Shown piece after piece: positions 1-32,888 of a stretch of DNA of 33,577 bases. The notes beneath the pieces are model-generated. The model had not been told where the DNA came from. It worked only from the letters and a program-made list of their open reading frames with translations, and ran no database searches. The translations under genes were made by a program, and so were the position numbers. The stretch is from Nitrospirota bacterium (GTDB lineage: Bacteria > Nitrospirota > Leptospirillia > Leptospirillales > Leptospirillaceae). Position 1 is the stretch's first letter; every line of letters starts with the position of its first letter. Location of the stretch: the NCBI GenBank assembly GCA_023481175.1, contig JAMCWM010000017.1, positions 1 to 33,577 on the forward strand. The letters run 5' to 3'.

Positions 1-166
1 TGATGTGCCCGAAGTTCAGGTACGGTGTTCCCGAAAGAACATCCGGGTAGGACAGTTTCAGCGAGGTCACGAACCCGAGGGTCGTCCCCATCGCCAGCCA
101 GAAGACGGAGGAGATGATCGCCGTCTTCGCTGCGGTTCCGTTTGGAATTTCCTTGTTGGAAGCCAT
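1..166 (-). CDS. Heme-copper (cbb3-like) oxidase subunit I, N-terminal fragment
   Basis: The first 55 codons of a gene that runs off the left edge. It starts at ATG (164-166) behind a strong AAGGAGGG ribosome binding site (about 169-177). The protein opens with a short polar stretch, then a membrane segment at about residues 15-37 (AIISSVFWLAMG...), then LSYPDVLSGTPYLNFGHI. The pattern of a first helix followed by PYLNFGHI resembles the helix I to helix II region of cbb3/NOR-type heme-copper oxidase catalytic subunits, where a (T/N)(Y/F)GRLRPxH motif follows. The heme-ligating histidines lie outside the window, so the exact class (cbb3 oxidase or NO reductase) cannot be fixed. It would be an integral membrane terminal oxidase subunit. 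It has its own promoter and is separated from the mla operon by a terminator. Confidence 0.6.
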   Translation of the reverse strand, partial: MASNKEIPNGTAAKTAIISSVFWLAMGTTLGFVTSLKLSYPDVLSGTPYLNFGHI

Positions 167-250
167 ACCCCCTCCTTAAATTGGCACCGATAGATGAAAC
201 GCTGACTTGCAACAACCCGTCCCGGACCGCTGCATTTCAGCCCACGGATC

Positions 251-279
251 AGTATACAAAACGACTTTTCAATTGGCAA
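251..279 (-). promoter_or_regulatory. Sigma70-type promoter for the oxidase gene
   Basis: On the minus strand, TTGCCA (274-279) and TATACT (251-256) are separated by exactly 17 bp. The predicted start is near 244, giving a leader of about 78 nt before the oxidase ATG at 166. The surrounding 170-350 region is unusually AT-rich for this window. Confidence 0.55.
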
Positions 280-349
280 GCAAAGGGCCAAACTTTTTTC
301 ATGCTCATAACACATCTTCATATATTGATATTGTGATATTGCTTTTTCG

Positions 350-374
350 AAAAAAAGAATCTTCCCGAAAATTC
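350..374 (-). terminator. Rho-independent terminator of the mla/metallophosphoesterase operon
   Basis: Read on the minus strand, GAATTTT and AAGATTC (357-374) form a 7-bp stem with one G-U pair and a four-base loop. Seven T follow immediately (350-356). It starts 4 bp after the stop codon of the metallophosphoesterase gene. Confidence 0.75.
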
Positions 375-377
375 CTT

Positions 378-1613
378 TCATGGCGGGGAGGCCGATCCGG
401 GACCGGGGGAGGGAGAAGGGAAAGAGACTCCGGGGGCGGCCGAGAGGGTGAGGAGGGTCATCTCCGGAGCCATCCCGAGGCGCACCGGAATGCCATAGTA
501 ACCCAACCCCGTGCTGACATGAAGGAGGTGGCCCCGAAGCGCAGGGGAATCGCCTTCGAAAAGTCCCGCATCGTAGCGGAAGAAGATCCGGGCCAGATTC
601 CAGAACGGCCGGCGTCCCCCGATCTGACCTCCGTGGGTATGGCCGGAGAGGGTGAGATCCGCACGGGTCTTGAGCTCACCCTCCCAGAGGGTCGGCTGGT
701 GGACAAGGGCCAGAACGAATTCTCGGGCCCTGACATCCCGAAGACCTCGGGCCAGGTCCGGACCGCATCCTTGACACACCCCTTCCCCGGCCGGGTCGTC
801 GATCCCGACCACCCGGATCCGCCCTTCCCCTTTTTGAATGAGCCGGCTTTCGTTCTGAAGAACGGGAACCCCATGGGACTTCATGAAGGCCGGAGCGCCT
901 TCACCCAGCGTCCAGTATTCATGGTTTCCCAGGACGGCAAAGGTCCCCAGGCGCCCTTTGAGTGACCCGAAGATCCTTTCGAAAATCCGGGCTTCGTCAG
1001 GGCGGTAGTCGATCATATCCCCCGTGTAGACCAGAATGTCGGGAGAGAGGCTTCGGGCAGTCTCGCATATTCTCTTGAGGGAGGCTTCCCCCTGCCATGC
1101 GCCGACGTGGAGGTCGCTCAGGTGAAGGATGGTCGTTCCCGACAGGTCGGGAGAAAGGCAGGGAAAGAAGAGGGTTTTCCGGATGACCCGGGGGGGCCGG
1201 ACCCGTTCGAACAGGGCCATTCCGAAGAGGGCCAGGAGAAGCAGACCCCCCGTCGTCTCGGCGGAGGTCCAGCGGACGGCTCCCCTGATGACCGATCCGG
1301 GAAACAAAAAGTTGTGAACGGCAATGATCCCCTCGGAGAGGAGAAGCCCGGTCAGAAAGACGCCGGCGAAAAAATAGAAAAGGAAAAACAGGACATTGAG
1401 AGAGCGGCGTCTCGGGAGAAAGCCCCGGAAGGACAAGACAAGATAGAGCGGAAGAAGAGTCGCCAGAAGAAAGGTCCCTGCCAGAAGCCCCGGAAGCGGA
1501 GGAGAAAGGAAGGAAGGCGAGTGGTCCCGGATGATCCCGGCCAGAAAGAGGCAGAAAATTTCATAGAGGATCAGGGAAGACCAGAAGATTCTGAGAAACC
1601 GCTGCCGGATCAA
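378..1613 (-). CDS. Membrane-anchored metallophosphoesterase (YkuE/YaeI type)
   Basis: A 411-residue calcineurin-like phosphoesterase. The N-terminal 140 residues are hydrophobic with about four membrane segments. The catalytic domain carries the family metal-binding blocks in order: SDLHVG (166-171), TGDMID (197-202), GNHEYW (229-234) and GHTHGG (324-329), so all dinuclear-metal ligands appear present. Family members hydrolyse phosphoesters at the membrane face; YaeI/LpxG-like relatives act on lipid A precursors, but nothing here fixes the substrate. The start is TTG at 1611-1613, overlapping the mlaD stop (TTGA), with GAGG about 10 nt upstream. This points to translational coupling. It is the last gene of the nfo-mlaEFD operon and is followed by a clear terminator, so a role in envelope lipid metabolism is a reasonable inference. 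Confidence 0.85.
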   Translation of the reverse strand: MIRQRFLRIFWSSLILYEIFCLFLAGIIRDHSPSFLSPPLPGLLAGTFLLATLLPLYLVLSFRGFLPRRRSLNVLFFLFYFFAGVFLTGLLLSEGIIAVHNFLFPGSVIRGAVRWTSAETTGGLLLLALFGMALFERVRPPRVIRKTLFFPCLSPDLSGTTILHLSDLHVGAWQGEASLKRICETARSLSPDILVYTGDMIDYRPDEARIFERIFGSLKGRLGTFAVLGNHEYWTLGEGAPAFMKSHGVPVLQNESRLIQKGEGRIRVVGIDDPAGEGVCQGCGPDLARGLRDVRAREFVLALVHQPTLWEGELKTRADLTLSGHTHGGQIGGRRPFWNLARIFFRYDAGLFEGDSPALRGHLLHVSTGLGYYGIPVRLGMAPEMTLLTLSAAPGVSFPSPSPGPGSASPP

Positions 1614-5019: not shown

Positions 5020-5514
5020 TCACATGCCCGGGTGAGGCGCCATCGGATGCGGCATCGTCATCCCGTGATGCATCATCATCATCTGTCGCCACAGCTTCTT
5101 GGCGGTCGCGAACTGGTCCGCGGTCAGGACCCGATGGGCCCCGGAGATCATGGTCAGATAGGCGTGCATGATCGTCCGTTTGTGTTTCAGGATGGCATCC
5201 ATGTTGGAGCTTGCCTTGTTCACATCGATGCGGTGGTGCATCATGAGCGCCATCGTCTCCATGTGAAGGACGTGAATGCGGGCCTTCTCCATGATCATCG
5301 TCTTCATGAAGTCCATTTTGAGAGAGGAGAGTTTTTTCACTTGATCCGGCGTCAACCCCAGCCGGTCCTGGTTCATCAGGTAGAAGGCGATCGGGCCGCC
5401 GTGATGGACCATTCCATGATGATACATGTTGGCCCGGGCCGTCCCGGGAGAGAGGAGCCCGAAGGAGAGAAGCAAAGCCAGTGCCAGAGTCCAAAAAGCC
5501 AATCCCTTTTTCAT
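5020..5514 (-). CDS. Spy/CpxP-like Met/His-rich periplasmic protein
   Basis: A 164-residue exported protein. The start ATG at 5512-5514 has a perfect AAGGAGGT site; a longer open frame upstream lacks support. The signal peptide is about residues 1-29 (MKKGLAFWTLALALLLSFG..., predicted cleavage after TARA). The mature part is helical and holds two LTxxQ-type repeats, LGLTPDQVKKLSSLK and LTADQFATAKKLW, the hallmark of the Spy/CpxP/ZraP family. These are periplasmic chaperones or metal-responsive sensors. Methionine and histidine are very enriched; the last 20 residues contain 8 Met and 4 His, suggesting soft-metal (copper/silver) or zinc binding. It lies downstream of an RND metal-efflux operon on the same strand, which supports a metal-stress role. 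Its exact function is unknown. Confidence 0.7.
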   Translation of the reverse strand: MKKGLAFWTLALALLLSFGLLSPGTARANMYHHGMVHHGGPIAFYLMNQDRLGLTPDQVKKLSSLKMDFMKTMIMEKARIHVLHMETMALMMHHRIDVNKASSNMDAILKHKRTIMHAYLTMISGAHRVLTADQFATAKKLWRQMMMMHHGMTMPHPMAPHPGM

Positions 5515-5975: not shown

Positions 5976-8900
5976 TCAGGACCCTCCGGGCCGGAACTCC
6001 GGTTCGTGACGGGCGATATTCGGGGGAGAGGGAGGACGGTCCCGGAAGACCAGAATATAGACGGCCGGAAGGACCAGCAGGGTCATGGCGGTCGAGCTGA
6101 TCAGCCCCCCGACCACCACCGCCGCCAAAGGCCTCTGGATATTGGCGCCCGTTCCCGACGACAGAAGAAGAGGAAGAATGCCGATGGCTCCCACCAGAGC
6201 GGTCATCAACACCGGCCGGATCCGCCGGAGGGCGGCCGACCGGATCGCCTCCCGGGGCAATTGCCCCTTGTTCCCCTCCTCCATGGCGAATGAAAGAAGA
6301 AGAACCCCGTTCTGGATCGCCACCCCGAACAGGGCAATGAATCCCACCGAGGCGGGAATGCTCAGATATTCCCCGAAGGACTTGAGGGCCACCACCCCGC
6401 CCACCAGGGAAAAGGGAATGTTGAGCAGGATGAGGAGCGTGTAGGAAAGAGATCCGAAGTTCCACATCAACAGAAGGAAGATCACCAGGAGGACCACCGG
6501 CACCAGAAGCCCGAGGCGGGCCATGGTCAGGTTGGTGTTCTCGAATTCGCCACCGACCGTCAGGTGGAGCCCCAGGGGCGGGGGAAGCCGGGTGTGGACC
6601 AGACGTTCCACATCCGCCACGACATGGCTCGTGGCCCGGTCGCCGATATTGAACTGGACCATGATCAGGCGGCTGCCCCCTTCATGGTAGATCCGGAAAG
6701 GTCCTGTCTCCTGCGAAAAACGGGCGAGCTGGCCCAGGGGAACGGAGTTCCCCCGGGGCGTGGTCAGAAGGATCGTCTTCATCCGGGCGACCGAATCCCG
6801 GATCCCTCGGGGGAATCGGACATGGAGGTGGATCCGGCGGACCCCTTTCAGGATCGTCGTCGTGAGCCCCTCCGGACCGATCCCCATCCGGATGACCCGA
6901 AGCACGTCCGAAACGTTGAGCCCATATTGGCTGATCGCCTGGCGGTCGATCCGGATATCGATGTAGGGCTGGCCGGTGATCCTCTGGACGGTCACGTCCC
7001 GGGTCCCGCGGACATGGCGGATGAGGGAGGCCAGCCGATCGGAATAGGAGGTCAGCTGGGCGATATCGTCCGAAAAAACCTTGGCCGCGACCTGGGCCTT
7101 TGCCCCCGAGACCATCTCGTCGATCCGTTCCTCGATGGGCTGGCTGAAATCGAAGGAGACGGAGGGGAGGGTCGCGTTGAGGCGCCGGCTCATCTCGTCC
7201 ACCAAGCGTCTCTTGCTCATTCCCTTCGGCCAGAATTTCCGCTCTTTCAGAAGGACATAGATTTCCATATGGCTTGTGACGTCGGTGTCGGTCCCCGACT
7301 GGGCACGGCCGATCCGGGACTGGGTGAGGAGAACCTCAGGATAGCTCCGAAGGATCCGGTCGATCACCCGGCTGGCCTCCGTCGTTTCCGACAGAGACGC
7401 GGACGGCCAGAGGTCGGCGATGATCAGCATCGATCCCTCGTCCAGGACGGGAATGAATTCCGTTCCTGTCCGGGATAGAAGAACGGCGGCGAGCGTGATG
7501 GCCGCCACTCCCGACAGAAGAACGCCTGTCCTGTGGGCCAGGATCCAGTCCAGAACGGGAGTGTAAACCCTTTCGAGCCAGAGGGTCAGACGTTCGCCGT
7601 GGGAAGACGGTCCCCTCGAGGGATCAAGGGACATCATGGAGGGGACGAAGGTCAGGGCAACCACCAGGGAAAGCAGGAGGGCCACGATGATCGAGGTGGC
7701 CATCGGGGCGAACATCTTTCCGGGCATCCCGGGAAGAAGGAGAATCGGAACGAAGACGACGACGATGATCATGATGGCGAAGAAGACGGGCCTTACAATT
7801 TCTCCGGCCGCCAGGACGATGCGCTCCTGCCGGGAGAGTTCCGGCATGAGGAGGGAGAGGCGCTCGATGTTTTCGGCCATGACGATCGAGGCGTCCACCA
7901 TCATGCCGATGCCGATGACGATTCCGCCCAGACTCATGAGATCGGCCGTCAAATGGATCCCGCGCATCACGAGAAAGGTCAGGAGAATGGAGAGAGGAAG
8001 GCCCGCCGCCACGACAAAGGAGGCCCAGAACCGTCCCAGGAAGAGTCCCAGGACCAGAATCACCAGAATTCCTCCCTCGACCAGGGAATGGACCACCGTC
8101 CGGAAGGCATGCCGGATGAGGGGGCCTGCATTGTAGAAGGGAACGATCCGGATCCCGGGAGGAAGAAGGGTGCGATTGATTTCGGCGACCTTCTTTTCGA
8201 CCCGGGACAGGGTTTTCAGGGCATTTTCCCCCCGCAGCATGACGACCGTCCCCTTCACGACCTCCCGGTCGTCGAGGAGGGCATTGCCGCGCCGGACCTC
8301 CGGCCGGACCTCCACATCGGCCACATCCCGGACCAGGACCGGAACCCCCTTCCGTTCGGCCACCACCACCGATTCGATGTCCCGCCGTCCGGAAATTCGC
8401 CCCAGGCCCCGGATCAGGTAATACTCCCCTCCCCTGTCGAGATAGCCCCCGCCCACGTTTTCGTTGTTGCTGGCCAGGGCCCGGGTCACATCCTGGAGCG
8501 AGAGATGAAATCCGTCGAGGCGGTAAGGGTCGACAATCACATAGTAGGATTTGACATACCCCCCGTAGGAGAGGACAGAAGCCACTCCCCGTGTGGAGAG
8601 GATCGCCCTTTTCACCGTCCAGTCCTGGAGGGTCCGAAGCTTCATGAGGTCGTCGGATCCCGCCAGGGTATAGCGGAAGATGTTGCCGGTGGGGGTCGAG
8701 ACCGCCCCCATGACCGGTCGGGCTCCCGCCGGAAGAAGGCCCTGGAGGGTTCCCAGACGTTCGGCCACCATCGTCCTCGCCCGATAGACCTCGCTCCCCC
8801 CGTCGAAGACCACCGTCACGGCCGACAGGCCGAAGAGGGTTTTCGAACGGACCTTCCGGACACCCGGAAGTCCGTTCATCGCGGTCTCGATGGTGTAGGT

Positions 8901-9095
8901 GATCTGTTGTTCGACCTCCAGGGGGGAGAGACCGGGGGCTTCGGTCAGAATCGTGACCGAAACGGGAGAGACATCGGGAAAGGCATCCACCGAGATCCGG
9001 AAGACAGAGTAGACGCCCCCCGCGGCCAGGAGGGCAAAGATCATCAGGATGACGAGTCGGCGATAAAGGAGCCAGCGGAAAAAGGCCTTGGCCAC
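5976..9095 (-). CDS. Heavy-metal efflux RND pump (CzcA/CusA family)
   Basis: A 1039-residue RND transporter with the full-length architecture: one N-terminal membrane helix (about 12-32), a large periplasmic loop, a helix cluster (about 340-500), a second periplasmic loop and a C-terminal helix cluster (about 860-1020). TM4 carries GIGMMVDASIVMAEN with D401 and E408, the proton-relay pattern of heavy-metal RND pumps, of the 'GAMVDAAIVMIEN' rather than the 'DFGLIVDGAVV' subtype. The segment RIDEMVSGAKAQ aligns with the CusA region that carries M573, but Glu replaces Met there. The position matching M672 also appears not to be Met, so copper/silver specificity is doubtful. GTG start at 9093-9095, 6 bp after the membrane-fusion gene. 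It exports metal ions across the envelope. Confidence 0.92.
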   Translation of the reverse strand: MAKAFFRWLLYRRLVILMIFALLAAGGVYSVFRISVDAFPDVSPVSVTILTEAPGLSPLEVEQQITYTIETAMNGLPGVRKVRSKTLFGLSAVTVVFDGGSEVYRARTMVAERLGTLQGLLPAGARPVMGAVSTPTGNIFRYTLAGSDDLMKLRTLQDWTVKRAILSTRGVASVLSYGGYVKSYYVIVDPYRLDGFHLSLQDVTRALASNNENVGGGYLDRGGEYYLIRGLGRISGRRDIESVVVAERKGVPVLVRDVADVEVRPEVRRGNALLDDREVVKGTVVMLRGENALKTLSRVEKKVAEINRTLLPPGIRIVPFYNAGPLIRHAFRTVVHSLVEGGILVILVLGLFLGRFWASFVVAAGLPLSILLTFLVMRGIHLTADLMSLGGIVIGIGMMVDASIVMAENIERLSLLMPELSRQERIVLAAGEIVRPVFFAIMIIVVVFVPILLLPGMPGKMFAPMATSIIVALLLSLVVALTFVPSMMSLDPSRGPSSHGERLTLWLERVYTPVLDWILAHRTGVLLSGVAAITLAAVLLSRTGTEFIPVLDEGSMLIIADLWPSASLSETTEASRVIDRILRSYPEVLLTQSRIGRAQSGTDTDVTSHMEIYVLLKERKFWPKGMSKRRLVDEMSRRLNATLPSVSFDFSQPIEERIDEMVSGAKAQVAAKVFSDDIAQLTSYSDRLASLIRHVRGTRDVTVQRITGQPYIDIRIDRQAISQYGLNVSDVLRVIRMGIGPEGLTTTILKGVRRIHLHVRFPRGIRDSVARMKTILLTTPRGNSVPLGQLARFSQETGPFRIYHEGGSRLIMVQFNIGDRATSHVVADVERLVHTRLPPPLGLHLTVGGEFENTNLTMARLGLLVPVVLLVIFLLLMWNFGSLSYTLLILLNIPFSLVGGVVALKSFGEYLSIPASVGFIALFGVAIQNGVLLLSFAMEEGNKGQLPREAIRSAALRRIRPVLMTALVGAIGILPLLLSSGTGANIQRPLAAVVVGGLISSTAMTLLVLPAVYILVFRDRPPSPPNIARHEPEFRPGGS

Positions 9096-9101
9096 GGTCG
9101 G

Positions 9102-10181
9102 CTACTTCCCGCGTTCGAACTGGGCCTTGACCCAGAAGCCGTTTCGGACCACGAGGCGCTCACCCGGATGGAGCCCCGAGGTCACGGGAACGAGCCCTCC
9201 CTCCGAGGCCCCCACGCTCACCCGCCGGATCCGGAAAAGATCCTTTTGCTCCTGGAGGAAGACCACAGGATGGCCTCCGGCCAGAAAAACGGCCTTCTTC
9301 GGAATCCAGAGCCCCGTTCCTCCGGCCGGAACCAGGACCCGGACCGGAAGGAACATCCCGGGTCGAAGCCTCAACGGTTTGTTGAAAAAGATTCCGCGGA
9401 CGGTGACGGTCCGGGTCTTCGGGTCGGTCACCGGACTGATGTAGATCACCCGCCCGGAAAGGGTCAGACCGGTGTCGGGAAGCCGCACCTTCATCGTCTG
9501 GCCCAGCCCCAGAAACGGAACGTCCTGCTGGTAGACCTGGGCATTGATCCGGACCCAGTCGAGGTTCGCAATCACAAAAAGCCGGTCCCCCGAGTTGATC
9601 GCCTGGCCGGAGACGGCCATCTTTGTAAGGACATACCCCGAAATGGGGGAGCGTATCTTGAGGTTTTTATGAACGATGCCCGTCTTTTCCAGAAGGGCAA
9701 TCTCCCGATCGACCACTCCGAGATTCTTGAGACGAGCCAGGGCCGCCTCCCGGATTTTCGGGGAAAAGGGGCGGGTCGAGGGACTCCGGTCGCTGATTCT
9801 TTCGAGACGGATGGACTGGAGGTATTCCTGCTGAGCCTCGATGTAGTCCGGGGAAAAGACTGTCACCAGAACCTGTCCCCTGGTTACGAGGTCCCCCGTA
9901 TCGGCGTAGACCCGGCGGACATAGCCGAAAATGGCGAGCCGGTGGATCGAACGGGGCGTCACATACCGCATCCGGTCGTCGATCATCGCCACGACCCCGT
10001 TTGTCCGGATGACGCGGACTCCTCGTCCGGGGCTGACGACCATGGTTCCGATGCCCAGAGTGCGAACGACATCGGGAGGAATGCGCACCTGGTCGGGAAG
10101 GGCGTCGGCTGGACGGGGATCGGGGAGGAGGAGGCCGGCCAGAATCAGGCAGAAGAGGGTCCTTGAAAGACAGAGGGACAT
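9102..10181 (-). CDS. RND efflux periplasmic adaptor (CusB/CzcB-like membrane-fusion protein)
   Basis: A 359-residue adaptor with an N-terminal signal peptide (about 1-27, ending ADA). Order of blocks: beta-barrel strand with GYVRRVYADTGDLVTRGQ (the first half-lipoyl motif), VTVFSPDYIEAQQEYL leading into the alpha-hairpin, IRSPISGYVLTKMAVSGQ (second half-lipoyl motif), then VFAIANLDWV-like FVIANLDWVRINAQVYQQD, and a membrane-proximal domain ending in GLHPGERLVVRNGFWVKA. This is the CusB/CzcB layout. It links the inner-membrane pump to an outer-membrane channel. It has no His-rich N-terminus of the CzcB type. The gene abuts the preceding permease stop codon with no gap and is 6 bp from the pump gene. 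Confidence 0.9.
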   Translation of the reverse strand: MSLCLSRTLFCLILAGLLLPDPRPADALPDQVRIPPDVVRTLGIGTMVVSPGRGVRVIRTNGVVAMIDDRMRYVTPRSIHRLAIFGYVRRVYADTGDLVTRGQVLVTVFSPDYIEAQQEYLQSIRLERISDRSPSTRPFSPKIREAALARLKNLGVVDREIALLEKTGIVHKNLKIRSPISGYVLTKMAVSGQAINSGDRLFVIANLDWVRINAQVYQQDVPFLGLGQTMKVRLPDTGLTLSGRVIYISPVTDPKTRTVTVRGIFFNKPLRLRPGMFLPVRVLVPAGGTGLWIPKKAVFLAGGHPVVFLQEQKDLFRIRRVSVGASEGGLVPVTSGLHPGERLVVRNGFWVKAQFERGK

Positions 10182-16745: not shown

Positions 16746-16791
16746 TGTCATTTATGTCAATTATTCTATTCCGAGCCTGACACGGATGACA
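16746..16791. promoter_or_regulatory. Symmetric four-half-site array, likely activator binding site
   Basis: TGTCA at 16746-16750 and 16755-16759, then TGACA at 16778-16782 and 16787-16791. Within each pair the half-sites start 9 bp apart, and the two pairs are exact inverted copies around a centre near 16768. The array ends 63 bp before the sigma54 promoter, a usual distance for enhancer-binding protein sites. Confidence 0.6.
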
Positions 16792-16792
16792 A
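16763..16792 (-). promoter_or_regulatory. Sigma70 promoter of the enhancer-binding protein gene
   Basis: On the minus strand TTGTCA (16787-16792) and TAGAAT (16763-16768) are 18 bp apart. The -35 box coincides with the outer TGACA half-site and the -10 box lies between the inner ones, so occupation of the array would block this promoter. Confidence 0.5.
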
Positions 16793-16853
16793 GAAATCCA
16801 GGCCCGTTTTTCATGAATTCTTACAAGGAAGACACTTGCGAGAATCTTCCCTC

Positions 16854-16868
16854 TGGCACATCCCTTGC
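16854..16868 (+). promoter_or_regulatory. Sigma54 (-24/-12) promoter of cydABX
   Basis: TGGCACATCCCTTGC matches the sigma54 consensus TGGCAC-N5-TTGC at every defined base, with the correct GG-to-GC spacing. The predicted start is near 16880, about 40 nt before cydA. Confidence 0.8.
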
Positions 16869-16920: not shown

Positions 16921-18501
16921 ATGGTTTCCAGCAGCCTCGTCGATCTCTCAAGGCTTCAGTTCGCGGTGACCGCTCTCTACCACTTCCTTTTCGTTCCCCT
17001 CACCCTCGGGCTGACCTATCTCCTCGTGATCATGGAGACGGTCTATGTCATGACCGGCAAGGTGATCTACAAGGACATGACCCGTTTCTGGGGAAAGCTT
17101 TTCGGGATCAATTTCGCCCTGGGGGTCACCACGGGGCTGACCATGGAGTTCGAATTCGGGACGAACTGGTCCTACTATTCCCATTATGTGGGAGACATCT
17201 TCGGAGCCCCCCTGGCCATCGAAGGACTGATGGCCTTCTTCCTCGAATCGACCTTCGTGGGACTTTTCTTCTTCGGATGGGACCGGCTTTCGAAGCCGGC
17301 CCATCTCGCGGTCACCTTTCTCACCGCGACGGGGACCAACCTGTCCGCACTCTGGATCCTGGTCGCCAACGGCTGGATGCAGCGCCCGGTGGGCGCCCAC
17401 TTCGACCCCGACACCATGCGGATGGAGATGACCAGCTTCTGGGAGGTCTTCCTCAATCCCGTCGCCCAGGCGAAATTCGTCCATACCGTCTGCGCGGGAT
17501 ACGTGACCGCCTCGCTCTTCGTCCTGGGCATCAGCTCCTGGTATCTTCTCAAGGGACGAAACGTCGAGTTTGCCAAGCGTTCCTTCAGAATCGCGGCCGC
17601 CTTCGGTCTCGCCACCACCATAGGCGTCATCATCCTGGGAGACGAGTCCGGCTATCTCGACGACCTCGGCCAGAAGACCAAGATCGCGGCCATCGAGGCC
17701 ATGTGGAAGACCGAGCCCGCTCCGGCCTCCTTCAACATCATCTCCGTCCCCGACCAGAAGAACATGAAGAACGACTTTTCCATCAAGATCCCCTATGTCC
17801 TGGGACTGATCGCCACCCGCTCCTTCGACACTCCCATCCCCGGACTCCGGGAGATCGAAAAGCACAACGAGACCCGGATCTCACACGGGATCCAGGCCGT
17901 GCTGGCCCTGGACCGGTACCGGGCCAACCGCGCAGACAAGGCCGCCCTCGACATCTTCGAAAAAAACGCCGACGACCTGGGATTCGGACTCCTGATGAAG
18001 CAATATGTACCGGACATCGCCAAGGCCACGCCGGCCGACATCCACCGGGCGGCCGTGGAGAGTCTTCCCCGGGTCACCCCTCTTTTCTGGACCTTCCGCT
18101 TCATGGTGGGTCTGGGATTTTCCTTCCTGGCCCTCTTCGCCCTGGCCTTCTATGTCTCAAGCCGGAACGAGTGCGAGAAGAAGCGATGGCTTCTCCGCTG
18201 GGCGCTCTATTTCATTCCCATGCCCTACCTCGCAAGCGAACTGGGATGGTTCGTCGCCGAATACGGCCGTCAACCCTGGTCGATCTACGGCATCCTTCCC
18301 ACCTCGGACTCCGTCTCGACCCTGTCGAGCCGAAGCCTGATCTTTTCCCTGACCGGATTCACTCTCTTCTACACCGGTCTTCTGGCCGTCGAGCTATACC
18401 TCATGTTCAAGTATGCCAGATTGGGCCCCGCAAGCCTTTATACCGGCCGCTATGAGGGGGAAGAGCGGGTTGTTCCGGCCCAGGTCCTTACGAAATCCTA
18501 G
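16921..18501 (+). CDS. cydA: Cytochrome bd quinol oxidase subunit I
   Basis: A 526-residue CydA, the heme-bearing subunit of the proton-motive, high-affinity quinol:O2 oxidoreductase. Start ATG 16921 has AAGGAG 7 nt upstream; the much longer open frame before it is spurious. H21 in [12 protein letters not shown] matches the heme b595/d ligand region (E. coli H19). [40 protein letters not shown] is the conserved helix block, here described by its ends. A methionine and histidine ligand region follows in the C-terminal half. [14 protein letters not shown] and [13 protein letters not shown] are near the end. The Q-loop between about residues 250 and 380 is of the short type. First gene of cydA-cydB-cydX. 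Confidence 0.95.
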
Positions 18502-18515
18502 GAAGGAGCCGCCTC

Positions 18516-19655
18516 ATGTTCGATTACGCCACCCTCAAATTTCTCTGGTGGGTTCTGGTCGTCGTTCTTCTCATCGGCTTTGCCGTCATGGACGGTTTCG
18601 ATATGGGAGTCGGCGCCCTCCTGCCCTTCCTCGGACGAAACGACACCGAACGCCGGGTCCTCCTGAACAGCATCGGGGCCCACTGGGAAGGGAACCAGGT
18701 CTGGTTCATCACGGCCGGAGGCGCTGTCTTCGCCGCCTGGCCGATGGTCTACGCCACGGCCTTTTCCGGCTTCTACGTCGCCATGCTCCTCGTCCTCTGG
18801 TCGCTGTTCTTCCGGCCGGTGGGCTTCGACTACCGGAGCAAGCTGGCGAATCCCTCCTGGAGGAGCTTCTGGGACTGGGGCCTCTTTGCGGGGGGGGCCG
18901 TGCCACCCCTGGTCTTCGGGGTGGCCTTCGGCAACCTTTTCGAAGGAACGGGATTTCGCTTCGATCCCGAGCTCCATTCCTCCTTTTCCTTCACCGTCCT
19001 GGACCTCTTCACCCCCTTTACCCTGGCCTCCGGAGTGATCAGCCTCCTGATGATCCTGTTCCATGGGGCCACCTACCTGAATCTCCGGACGGAAGGCCTT
19101 CTCCAGGCGCGCGCCAGGACGGCAGCCACGGCGACCGGAGGACTTCTGGCCGTCCTCTTTCCCGCCGTGGGCCTCGCCATCGCACGCGGCGTCCCGGGAT
19201 ACCGGATCGTCTCGGGCGATGATCCCGGGGCCCTCCCCAACCCCCTGGCCAAGACCGTGGTCCGGACCGCAGGCGGATGGCTCCGGAACTACGAGGCCCG
19301 CCCTATCCTGTGGATCATTCCCTTCCTCGTCATCGCCGGCATTTTTCTGGCCCTTCTGGCCATGCGGCGAGGAAAACCCCTGGTGGCCTTCATCGGGTCG
19401 GCCCTGGCGAATGGGGCGGTGATCCTGACGGCCGCAGTCTCCCTCTTTCCCTTCATTCTCACCTCGAGCCTGGACCCCTCCAGCAGCCTGACGGTCTGGG
19501 ACGGCACATCGAGCCGCCTCACCCTTCTCGTCATGTTCTGGGCGGCGCTCCTCCTCACCCCGGTGGTCCTGGCCTACACCGGGTGGTGCTACCGCGTCAT
19601 GCGCGGGAAAGTCACCGAACAGCAGGTCCACGAGCAGGATCACACCCTGTACTGA
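18516..19655 (+). CDS. cydB: Cytochrome bd quinol oxidase subunit II
   Basis: A 379-residue CydB with eight to nine membrane helices. The N-terminal family signature is present: [23 protein letters not shown], then [26 protein letters not shown] and [11 protein letters not shown]. It forms the heterodimer with CydA. AAGGAG lies 9 nt before the ATG. The gap to cydA is 14 bp and to cydX 26 bp, so the three form one transcript from the sigma54 promoter. Confidence 0.95.
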
Positions 19656-19681: not shown

Positions 19682-19813
19682 ATGTGGTATTTCACGTGGT
19701 TCATCGGAATCACCATGGCCGTTCTTCTCGCCGTGATGCATGCCCTCTGGTATGAGGTCCAGGAGGACGAGGCCATCCTCAGGAAACAGTCGGACACGCG
19801 CCCCGAACCATGA
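19682..19813 (+). CDS. cydX: Small cytochrome bd subunit CydX
   Basis: A 43-residue single-helix protein beginning MWYFTWFIG, the hallmark of CydX (YbgT), followed by one membrane helix (about 5-23) and a charged tail EVQEDEAILRKQ. GGAGG lies 8 nt upstream. CydX stabilises the CydAB complex and its hemes. Confidence 0.9.
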   Translation: MWYFTWFIGITMAVLLAVMHALWYEVQEDEAILRKQSDTRPEP

Positions 19814-19888
19814 CGCACGCCCATTCGGCCCGGGAGTGTTCCGGCAGTGTTGCGATCTTATATCCTGGCAATGAAAAAGGAGCCCGTT

Positions 19889-20405
19889 ACGAAAGAGGTT
19901 GTCGACCTTGGGGTCGGACCCGGTGGAATGCGCCGCCTATGAACTCGACTCGGAACCGGGCGACAAGGTCCATGTGAGCGTGCTCAACCCGGCCGAATAT
20001 CTCCAGCGCGTTCCTTCGAATCCCGGGTCGCGGTCGGATGGCGCACACGCAAGGAAACGACCTTCCCGATCCGGCCCTGTCTCAAAAAAGGGGCATCGCC
20101 CTCATCGCCAAGAAGGCCGATGCCATCGATCCCAAGACCAACACCCTGAGATTCATGGACAAGTCGACTCACACCTGTGACGGTCTGCTCATCACCACCG
20201 GGCCCCGTCCGGCCTTCGACCTGATCGAGGGGGTCGACCCCGTCCATGGATACACCCGGTCGGCCTGCACCGTCGACCACGCACAAACCGCCCGCGAAAA
20301 TCCGGAAGACTCCTTGATTTTTTTCAACCTCCCCCCCGCCACATGGCCCGACAGATGCGCGAAGTTGATCTTCGCCGAGAGAGGAGTGTCCCGCATAAAA
20401 ACTGT
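19889..20405 (+). pseudogene. Decayed sulfide:quinone oxidoreductase (SQR-like flavoprotein)
   Basis: A relic of an SQR/type II NADH-dehydrogenase-like flavoprotein spread over three frames. The nucleotide-binding start reads EVVDLGVGPGGM, then a shift leads to AAYELDSEPGDKVHVSVLNP and EYLQRVPSNP. A further shift gives VAVGWRTRKETTFPIRPCLKK, and a third gives GIALIAKKADAIDPKTNTLRF, LLITTGPRPAFDLIEGV and GYTRSACTVDHA, all in family order. After about 20310 only a degenerate PPAT.../LIFAERGV segment can be recognised; the C-terminal half, with the second redox Cys and membrane-binding region, is gone. AAAGGAG stands 6 nt before an ACG codon (19889-19891) where the ATG should be, suggesting a lost start codon. 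It directly follows cydX. Confidence 0.75.
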
Positions 20406-29141: not shown

Positions 29142-30424
29142 CATAAATAAATAACGTGAACCTTTATCGGTTCGGCGAAATAACATAGTTCCACTCGCCA
29201 TGGAAGTCATCGCGGGCAATCCGGATGGTGGCGAATTCTGTGTCAGTCACCTTGACGCCCTTCGGATAAAGGGCCGAATCGATTTCGGCTTGCACCTTCA
29301 ACCCTTTGCGGGTTGTGGTGGCAGCGATCAAATTGACGATGACTTCGTGGCTTACCAAGGGTTGACCACGCCAATTCAGGCTGATGTACGAAAACAGGCG
29401 ATGCTCGATCTTGTTCCACTTGCTCGTGCCAGGCGGGAAGTGGCTCACCCGGATCGGCATATCCAGTTCATCGGCGAGTCGTTGCAACTCCAGCTTCCAC
29501 AGTCGCACCCGTGAGCCGTTGCTGCCGCCGCCATCAGCCATGATCATCAGCTCCCTGGCCGCAGGATAGACGGCCTGGCCCATGGCAAACCACCAGCGCC
29601 GAATCGTCGCCACGGCAAAGCTTGCGGTATCGTGATCGGTGCCCACGCTGACCCAGCCGGCGTTGTTTGCGAGATCGTAGACGCCATACGGATTGGCCCG
29701 CCCCAATTCTTCGTCTACAAAGTCATGGACCTTGACTGGTTCGGGCTCGCCTTGAGGGCGCCACTCCTTGCCGCCATTCTTGTAGGGACCGACCAGCTCC
29801 TTCTTCTTGGTGTCCACGGAAATCACGGGCTGCCCCGCACTCAAGGCCGCTTGTGTCTTGTCGTTGATGTATTCGAACTGGGCATTGCGGTCCGGGTGGC
29901 TCGCCCCCTCCAGCGTCTTGCGATTGCCTTGCAGGCTGTAGCCCATCTCCTTGAGCAAAACGCCCACCGAAACATGACTGATCGCATGCCCCTGCTCGCC
30001 CAGTTCACGTGCCAGTTGCATCAGGCTCTTGCACGTCCAGCGCAGCGGCGACTGCGGATCCCCTCTGGTTGCGGGCTCCACCAATCGTTCCAACGCCTCT
30101 CGCACGGCCGGATCCCGATCCGTCAGCTTCTTGCGCCCTGCGCCGGCCCGCCTGACCCGGCGCGGTTCCTCCGGCAATACCCGCTGTGGGGACTCGAGTT
30201 CCTTGATTCCGGCCAGGATGGACCCCCGCGCCACCCCGGTGGCCTGACTCACACGCTTGACGCCACCATGCCCCAGAAGCTTGGCTTCCACCGCCGCATG
30301 CAGTCGCCTTTGACGCTCGTCGAGAATCCCTTCGAGGGCTTGATGTCGGGCCGCAATCAATGCATCCGTTTCCATGCACCAAGGATATACCCACGTCTTA
30401 AATAGTTCAAGTAATTATTTTATG
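29142..30424 (-). mobile_element. ISAzo13-family insertion sequence
   Basis: About 1283 bp inserted inside the IS630 transposase gene. Imperfect terminal inverted repeats: 29142-29161 (CATAAATAAATAACGTGAAC) and 30405-30424 (its partner CATAAAATAATTACTTGAAC on the minus strand), 16/20 identical. It carries one transposase gene. A clean target duplication is not evident. Confidence 0.75.
29164..30375 (-). CDS. ISAzo13-family transposase
   Basis: A 403-residue intact transposase matching the ISAzo13 pattern: N-terminal helix-turn-helix region (VKRVSQATGVARGSILAGI), SVDTKKKELVGPYKNGGKEW, VYDLANNAGWVSVGTDHDTA, MIMADGGGSNGSRVRLWK, VSHFPPGTSKWNKIEHRLFS, and ending DDFHGEWNYVI. The acidic catalytic residues are in the SVDTKKK, MADGGGSNGS and KIEHRLF blocks. 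Start ATG 30373-30375. The length is standard for the family and there are no frameshifts, so the copy may be recently active; it disrupts the older IS630 copy. Confidence 0.92.
   Translation of the reverse strand: METDALIAARHQALEGILDERQRRLHAAVEAKLLGHGGVKRVSQATGVARGSILAGIKELESPQRVLPEEPRRVRRAGAGRKKLTDRDPAVREALERLVEPATRGDPQSPLRWTCKSLMQLARELGEQGHAISHVSVGVLLKEMGYSLQGNRKTLEGASHPDRNAQFEYINDKTQAALSAGQPVISVDTKKKELVGPYKNGGKEWRPQGEPEPVKVHDFVDEELGRANPYGVYDLANNAGWVSVGTDHDTASFAVATIRRWWFAMGQAVYPAARELMIMADGGGSNGSRVRLWKLELQRLADELDMPIRVSHFPPGTSKWNKIEHRLFSYISLNWRGQPLVSHEVIVNLIAATTTRKGLKVQAEIDSALYPKGVKVTDTEFATIRIARDDFHGEWNYVISPNR

Positions 30425-30560: not shown

Positions 30561-32888
<2,328 letters not shown>

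Follow-up and report, generated by a model that had tools for sequence, protein, structure and literature searches.

Transcription of the cytochrome bd operon cydABX described here is probably governed by a sulfide- or persulfide-responsive σ54 switch for sulfide-resistant respiration, a reading to which we assign a probability of about 0.75 and in which the signal is inferred. The operon lies in the window, the whole 33,577-nucleotide stretch of DNA that was analysed, which comes from a 2.32-Mb genome assembly (G000; 55 contigs, completeness 89%). Its source appears to belong to the Leptospirillum family of acid-mine iron oxidisers. CydABX was recognised in the window by PF01654, PF02322 and a small subunit of the MWYF type, and a cydX homologue is present in 8/8 relatives searched. 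The gene for an enhancer-binding protein (EBP) is divergent to cydABX, and the intergenic gap of 195 bases holds TGTCATTTATGTCA, TGACACGGATGACA and TGGCACATCCCTTGC (Table 1).

Table 1. Positions and strands of the features of the cyd locus within the window
Feature	Positions	Strand	Basis or remark
EBP gene, FisR group, 448 aa	15379-16725	-	open frame; PAS / AAA+ (GAFTGA) / Fis-HTH
Putative upstream activator site 1, TGTCATTTATGTCA, TGNCA-N4-TGNCA	16746-16759		conserved in relatives
Putative -10 (TAGAAT) of the regulator's σ70-type promoter	16763-16768	-	between the two sites
Putative upstream activator site 2, TGACACGGATGACA	16778-16791		start-to-start distance from site 1 of 32 bp
Putative -35 (TTGTCA) of the regulator gene	16787-16792	-	overlaps site 2
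σ54 -24/-12 element of cydABX, TGGCACATCCCTTGC	16854-16868	+	10/10 to TGGCAC-N5-TTGC
cydA, cytochrome bd subunit I	16921-18501	+	ORF and PF01654 profile
cydB, cytochrome bd subunit II	18516-19655	+	ORF and PF02322 profile
cydX small subunit, 43 aa (MWYFTWF...)	19682-19813	+	ORF
sqr remnant	19874-20307	+	three frames, stops near residue 141 of 425; best match to L140 71% over 75 aa

The divergent EBP belongs, as judged from its sequence, to the FisR group of sulfane-sulfur sensors. It combines a regulatory domain, a GAFTGA AAA+ domain and a Fis-type helix-turn-helix (HTH) in one open frame, and is thus the complete divergent GAFTGA activator named in the original prediction. Specifically, the Pfam profiles PAS_4, Sigma54_activat and HTH_8 match the protein, HTH_8 at 21.6 bits and so just below its cut-off of 22, and no NCBIfam cut-off is reached among the best 25 of 28 matches. 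The EBP shares 47% identity over 414 aa with a protein of Cupriavidus metallidurans that is encoded beside genes for persulfide dioxygenase (PDO) and sulfide:quinone oxidoreductase (SQR), the kinship to Cupriavidus being measured on this protein as a stand-in for FisR of Cupriavidus pinatubonensis. A tblastn search of plasmids with the PAS part turned up Pseudoalteromonas xiamenensis along with two records from C. metallidurans. In the tree, the family clade stands next to a group that contains the C. metallidurans, Pseudoalteromonas and Hydrogenophaga proteins, with a support of 93/91 that is below the star limit of the tool and with several long branches, joins between which may be false. 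Seven single-SQR-flanking proteins stand apart from this neighbour group. Membership of the FisR group makes sulfide or sulfane sulfur a candidate signal.

The PAS domain of the window EBP carries the motif C62-x10-C73-x6-C80, and the three cysteines are invariant in 21/21 aligned rows. The available parts of a study on FisR report a tetrasulfide linking C53 and C64, which are spaced as C62 and C73 are here (PMC8614764). According to the accessible text of PMC7315123, FisR of Acinetobacter baumannii has none of the regulatory cysteines, and its targets nevertheless respond to sulfide; sensing therefore involves more than the motif. Among the 50 matches listed for the modelled EBP, the fold matches only σ54 activators and does so via the AAA+ domain, so the model says nothing on the sensor.

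The genes found beside related regulators point in the same direction. A scan of named genomes yielded 80 loci; L043-L124 comprise 82 loci, and 25 of these 82 have a full-length orthologue of the EBP. cyd, SQR or PDO lies within the fetched DNA of 18/25 full-length orthologues, versus 0/55 of the other PAS hits (Fisher p = 1.4e-12, uncorrected for kinship, with seven of the 18 from the window's own family). Set aside from the orthologue count were L049, which has cyd and a regulator with the AAA+ domain deleted, and L062, which is cut by a contig end. In the C. metallidurans locus (L043), which is unannotated and was read from ORFs and profiles, the regulator is transcribed divergently from the gene of a 292-aa protein with the metallo-beta-lactamase fold, after which comes a 440-aa SQR frame. 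The 292-aa protein has its best NCBIfam match in the sulfur transferase/dioxygenase Blh, though under the cut-off, and its PDB relatives include the persulfide dioxygenase ETHE1 (3.9e-29); the 440-aa frame matches solved SQRs in the PDB at 7.8e-93. SQR also lies beside the regulator in L057, L060, L061, L063, L064, L067 and L068, in the same orientation in L057 and divergent in the other six, and the SQR of L064 has a PDB match at 2.8e-166. In P. xiamenensis (L044) the regulator is divergent to cydP-cydAB-cydX-ybgE, and in two Hydrogenophaga MAGs it is divergent to the gene of cytochrome bd subunit I. The annotated cydB of L044, 2712 bases long, spans both the cydA and the cydB match. The fetched DNA of 7/25 orthologues holds none of cyd, SQR and PDO. 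The flanks of L052, L054, L056, L059, L065, L066 and L069 contain no SQR, PDO or cyd by tblastn, supplemented for some ORFs by Pfam; L065 offers just 93 bases upstream.

Within the window's own family the partner gene is sqr. A protein search found close SQRs (58-63% identity, >600 bits) in 8/21 family genomes; in these eight, sqr lies directly after cydX in a contiguous cydABX-sqr arrangement, and the regulator is present in all. The SQR of L140 matches solved SQRs in the PDB at 8.3e-173. In the 16 family genomes with cydA, a whole sqr is found in 8/9 genomes with an intact EBP versus 0/7 without (p = 0.0014, kinship uncorrected). The exception among the nine is the window, where the EBP is intact and divergent to cydABX and the sulfide-oxidation partner is a frame-broken sqr remnant only; the sulfide link there accordingly comes from the relatives. 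G012 and G017 retain sqr traces. In the consulted portion of a chloride study on L. ferriphilum, sqr is up and two σ54-type regulators are down (PMC9053815). From the gene orders in the family, the ancestral unit was probably regulator // cydABX-sqr.

These neighbourhoods bear on a rival explanation, which accepts the σ54/EBP circuit as real and has the PAS domain sense oxygen, redox, NO or a cofactor (haem, Fe-S, metal) instead of sulfur. cyd operons are classically tied to oxygen. The cysteine/histidine cluster could bind metal, and a comparison of the PAS domain with PDB sequences gave nothing significant (best E 0.29), which leaves room for such a sensor. The excerpted text of PMC6695575 further reports higher cydAB transcript levels in L. 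ferriphilum at greater oxygen supply; this response is neither proof nor exclusion of sulfide control. We consider oxygen or cofactor sensing unlikely, because the regulator group adjoins SQR and PDO in other phyla, sqr is in the same operon in eight relatives, and the cysteine spacing equals that reported, in the parts available, for FisR.

What is conserved upstream of cydA is two palindromic TGNCA-N4-TGNCA 14-mers, three helical turns apart, a spacing that would suit two dimers on one DNA face. TGTCA-N4-TGTCA has only two matches in the window, both in this array; allowing up to one mismatch, 0.72 would be expected in the window, and two or more matches occur in 19/100 shuffles. The site pair, taken at 29-35 bp spacing, scores 16/16 in the window, and 0/1000 dinucleotide shuffles of the 220-base stretch ahead of cydA equal it. 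For comparison, sixteen family cydA loci were collected, oriented and scored, again with a spacing of 29-35 allowed (an earlier run fixed at 32 missed L015, L016 and L027). Both 14-mers score 15-16/16 in 9/9 PAS-keeping loci with readable upstream DNA (L013-L020 and L027; L021 was left out because of a run of N), and in each of the nine 0/1000 shuffles are as good as the real pair. The start-to-start spacing is 32 in most loci, 31 in L015 and L016, and 33 in L027. Although the EBP of L027 shares only 54% identity over 429 aa with the window EBP, its sites are kept, indicating that the sites outlived much sequence change. The conservation of the 14-mer pair across the PAS-keeping loci decides that the array is more than chance.

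The original prediction had described a mirror-symmetric array of four half-sites lying 63 bp from the -24 element. The TGTCA/TGACA half-sites are exactly where it placed them, and the distance is 62 bases. The mirror symmetry is seen in the window and is not conserved, being broken in L014-L017, in which the left unit is TGTCA-N4-TGACA. A mirror-symmetric four-site device was thus rejected, since the symmetry is lost in these loci and the two palindromic units are kept.

One TGNCA-N4-TGNCA unit is also found upstream beside related regulators of other phyla (L043, L044, L053 and L058; 0-4/500 shuffles equal). The SQR-flanking relatives L063, L064, L067 and L068 have TGTCATGACA instead of the N4 form, indicating that the binding code is not uniform across the regulator group; in L060 neither form is clear. 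The TGTCATGACA palindromes amount to the window's half-site minus the N4 spacer, possibly a change of dimer geometry inside one regulator group.

A perfect -24/-12 element had been claimed before cydABX, and a 10/10 match is indeed there (Table 1). Another exact TGGCAC-N5-TTGC match lies at 5472-5486 (-), near the start of ORFs 5020-5586/5009-5494 (-) and upstream of an AP_endonuc_2 gene; it probably arose by chance. At up to one mismatch the motif occurs 3 times in the window against 0.89 expected. The match alone was rejected as proof, given the second exact match in the window and a frequency near chance. The TGGCAC-N5-TTGC form is, in addition, conserved in orthologous loci carrying the activator. 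Specifically, the score is 10/10 in six family loci (L013-L017 and L027, the window's own among them), 9/10 in L020 and L021, and 8/10 in L019. Taken together, the nine intact-EBP loci score 8-10/10 versus 6-8/10 in the seven without (rank test p = 0.0006, kinship uncorrected; L021, where a run of N cuts the PAS region, is counted as intact). The proposed activation of cydABX from a σ54 promoter by an adjacent dedicated EBP is well supported by this comparison of family loci.

Several relatives have lost parts of the circuit. The EBP of L018 (the same as L049, in G012) keeps its PAS and HTH parts and has the AAA+ domain deleted; the -24/-12 element there is degraded to 7/10. In L022 the EBP persists only as a 57-residue C-terminal stretch and the sites score 14/16, and in L023 it persists only as a 40% match to the HTH part. 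There is no EBP beside cydA in L024-L026 and L028. The site-pair scores are 9-11/16 in L023-L026; in L028 (G019) the pair scores 13/16, with one 14-mer kept and a weak -24/-12 element at 8/10. Upstream in L028, one frame looks transposase-like by eye, and the tested frame 140-679 (+) gave no Pfam match. A PAS profile run on 13 genomes gave no strong match elsewhere in the EBP-less genomes, and three marginal matches (E 1e-5 to 8e-4) lie in G018, G010 and G002. Sites and promoter thus weaken or vanish where the EBP is lost, indicating that both go with the regulator. Among regulator-bearing cydA loci, those with an intact EBP keep the site pair and the -24/-12 element, as the original prediction expected of other genomes; no intact-EBP locus was found to be devoid of array and element. 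Against the reading, L018 still has both sites at 15/16 despite the deleted AAA+ domain. The regulator of L020/L051 has GSFTGA in place of GAFTGA, with a promoter at 9/10.

The loss series also speaks to the identity of the binding protein. FNR boxes have a 5-N4-5 geometry, like the 14-mers here. The TGNCA-N4-TGNCA units might accordingly be sites of a Crp/Fnr-type protein and the -24/-12 match incidental, and G000 has three HTH_Crp_2 matches, obtained in a search that is permissive, its control being positive in all 14 genomes; some Crp/Fnr contribution is thus conceivable. We regard this as a long shot: sites and -24/-12 element weaken or vanish with the EBP while cydA stays, so that the boxes do not remain with cydA irrespective of the activator, and a TGNCA-N4-TGNCA unit also stands beside related regulators elsewhere, in the four loci named above.

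rpoN was not found in the assemblies G000, G002, G009 and G018 with the PF04552 profile or, on G000, with a congener's RpoN protein; 11/13 further genomes within the genus carry it. A congener's 3.5-kb rpoN neighbourhood gives short matches only in G000 and G002 (32-111 bases, within query bases 172-282), no match in G009 and a full-length match in G012, with 40 out of 90-104 first-look candidates having been scored in the genomes that gave a negative result. Since its surroundings are missing too, rpoN most likely fell into an assembly gap. Loss of rpoN in the window's species was set aside on the same ground, a judgement short of proof.

The sqr remnant and the rpoN-less assembly would also fit a locus that is a relic in the window's species, with a promoter that may be out of use, and G002, G010, G012 and G017 have neither a working regulator gene beside cydA nor a whole sqr. 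That the window's locus is such a relic seems very improbable. The regulator frame is open, the sites score 16/16 and the -24/-12 element 10/10, and the rpoN neighbourhood is missing along with rpoN. In addition, the Sigma54_activat profile finds 14 matches in G000, of which at least five among the matches listed have E <1e-71 (the control was positive in all 14 genomes, and the weaker matches may be other AAA+ proteins).

The regulator gene has a putative promoter of its own inside the array. Putative TTGNCR-N17/18-TANNAT boxes, read from the sequence, precede the EBP gene in L013-L020 and are not at that place in L027; in L019 the putative -10 is TATAAT. The outer half of site 2 doubles as the putative -35 hexamer. 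This overlap suggests autorepression through site 2, since bound regulator would limit its own synthesis.

The sulfide-responsive σ54 switch that we favour would work in four steps. Cytoplasmic sulfide or sulfane sulfur would modify the PAS cysteines C62/C73, and perhaps C80. Regulator dimers would then bind both 14-bp sites, which lie ~95 and ~127 bp ahead of the predicted start, and the AAA+ ring would open σ54 polymerase at the -24/-12 element. cydABX would be made, and in the eight intact-regulator relatives SQR too, from the next gene, so that sulfide electrons would enter the quinone pool via SQR and exit via the sulfide-insensitive bd-type oxidase. Finally, regulator bound at site 2 may limit its own synthesis. 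In the window's species, where sqr has decayed, cydABX would be left as the neighbouring target. Several bacteria induce their cyd operon in response to sulfide. According to the available parts of the respective reports, E. coli bd oxidases remain functional in the presence of sulfide that halts bo3 (PMC4815019), and A. baumannii cydAB is induced by sulfide (PMC7315123).

Among the closest known systems is the FisR-σ54 circuit for sulfide-oxidising genes of C. pinatubonensis JMP134, as conveyed by the accessible parts of PMC8614764, PMC7315123, PMC12170894 and PMC11211675. Like Cupriavidus FisR as presented there, the window EBP is a predicted σ54 activator with N-terminal regulatory cysteines at C-x10-C and sulfide-handling targets, and the C. 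metallidurans locus is also divergent, with a TGNCA-N4-TGNCA unit upstream. Unlike those of Cupriavidus FisR in these sources, the target here is cytochrome bd (plus SQR in relatives), the phylum is Nitrospirota, there are two sites a constant three turns apart, and the array overlaps a putative promoter of the regulator. FisR of A. baumannii is likewise σ54-dependent and divergent, and controls a PDO-SQR operon; in contrast to the window, cydAB (A1S_1433-1434) lies away from the FisR gene and the regulatory cysteines are not conserved, and the induction of cydAB by sulfide is given in the excerpt without a named direct regulator (PMC7315123). The P. xiamenensis and Hydrogenophaga loci have the same regulator group, the C-x10-C-x6-C motif (L044, L053) and one TGNCA-N4-TGNCA unit; unlike in the window's family, no sqr was found in their operons, and the -24/-12 element, read by eye, is weakly matched.

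ArcA, FNR, CydR and Rex control cydAB by oxygen or redox signals and are not known to involve σ54; these systems share with the window a regulated cyd operon and differ from it in the σ54 promoter. Sulfide has been linked to cydAB expression in E. coli through YgaV, a sulfide-responsive regulator of the SqrR/BigR type, and cydAB read counts rise in a ygaV mutant (PMC9774250, available parts). Unlike the window EBP, YgaV is described there as a 99-aa SqrR/BigR homologue that is not a σ54 activator, and as a global regulator with cydAB as one of ~150 targets, not an adjacent dedicated one. Given YgaV, as far as its description goes, there is precedent for coupling cydAB to a sulfide-responsive regulator. 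A search of the open-access literature found no report of a σ54-driven cyd promoter or of a dedicated adjacent σ54-type sulfur sensor for cyd. What is new appears to be the combination of known parts (FisR-group sensor, σ54, cydABX, mostly with sqr), not a new system type.

The locus offers a concrete candidate sulfur sensor for cyd whose sites, promoter and sensor motif are defined; across relatives it also forms a natural series of joint losses of regulator, sites and sqr. If the reading is true, the acid-mine cydABX-sqr unit is a self-contained sulfide-to-oxygen electron path under one σ54 promoter. The locus also offers another frame for Leptospirillum cydAB not behaving as a low-oxygen oxidase, as the consulted text of PMC6695575 has it. 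A broader proposition has, in our view, even odds: that bd-type oxidases repeatedly became direct targets of the FisR group, in Nitrospirota, Pseudoalteromonas and Hydrogenophaga, that a sulfane-sulfur sensor and not oxygen is the primary cyd switch of these bacteria, and that the acid-mine oxidase and SQR form one operon with one σ54 promoter, now being lost piecemeal in some species.

Elsewhere in the window, an RND efflux pair (ACR_tran, 1039 aa, and HlyD_D23, 359 aa) lies at 5979-10181 (-). A transposase (DDE_Tnp_ISAZ013; 29167-30375 (-)) adjoins a 767-aa peroxidase-family gene (30564-32864 (-)), which has two matched stretches and would be catalase-peroxidase-like.
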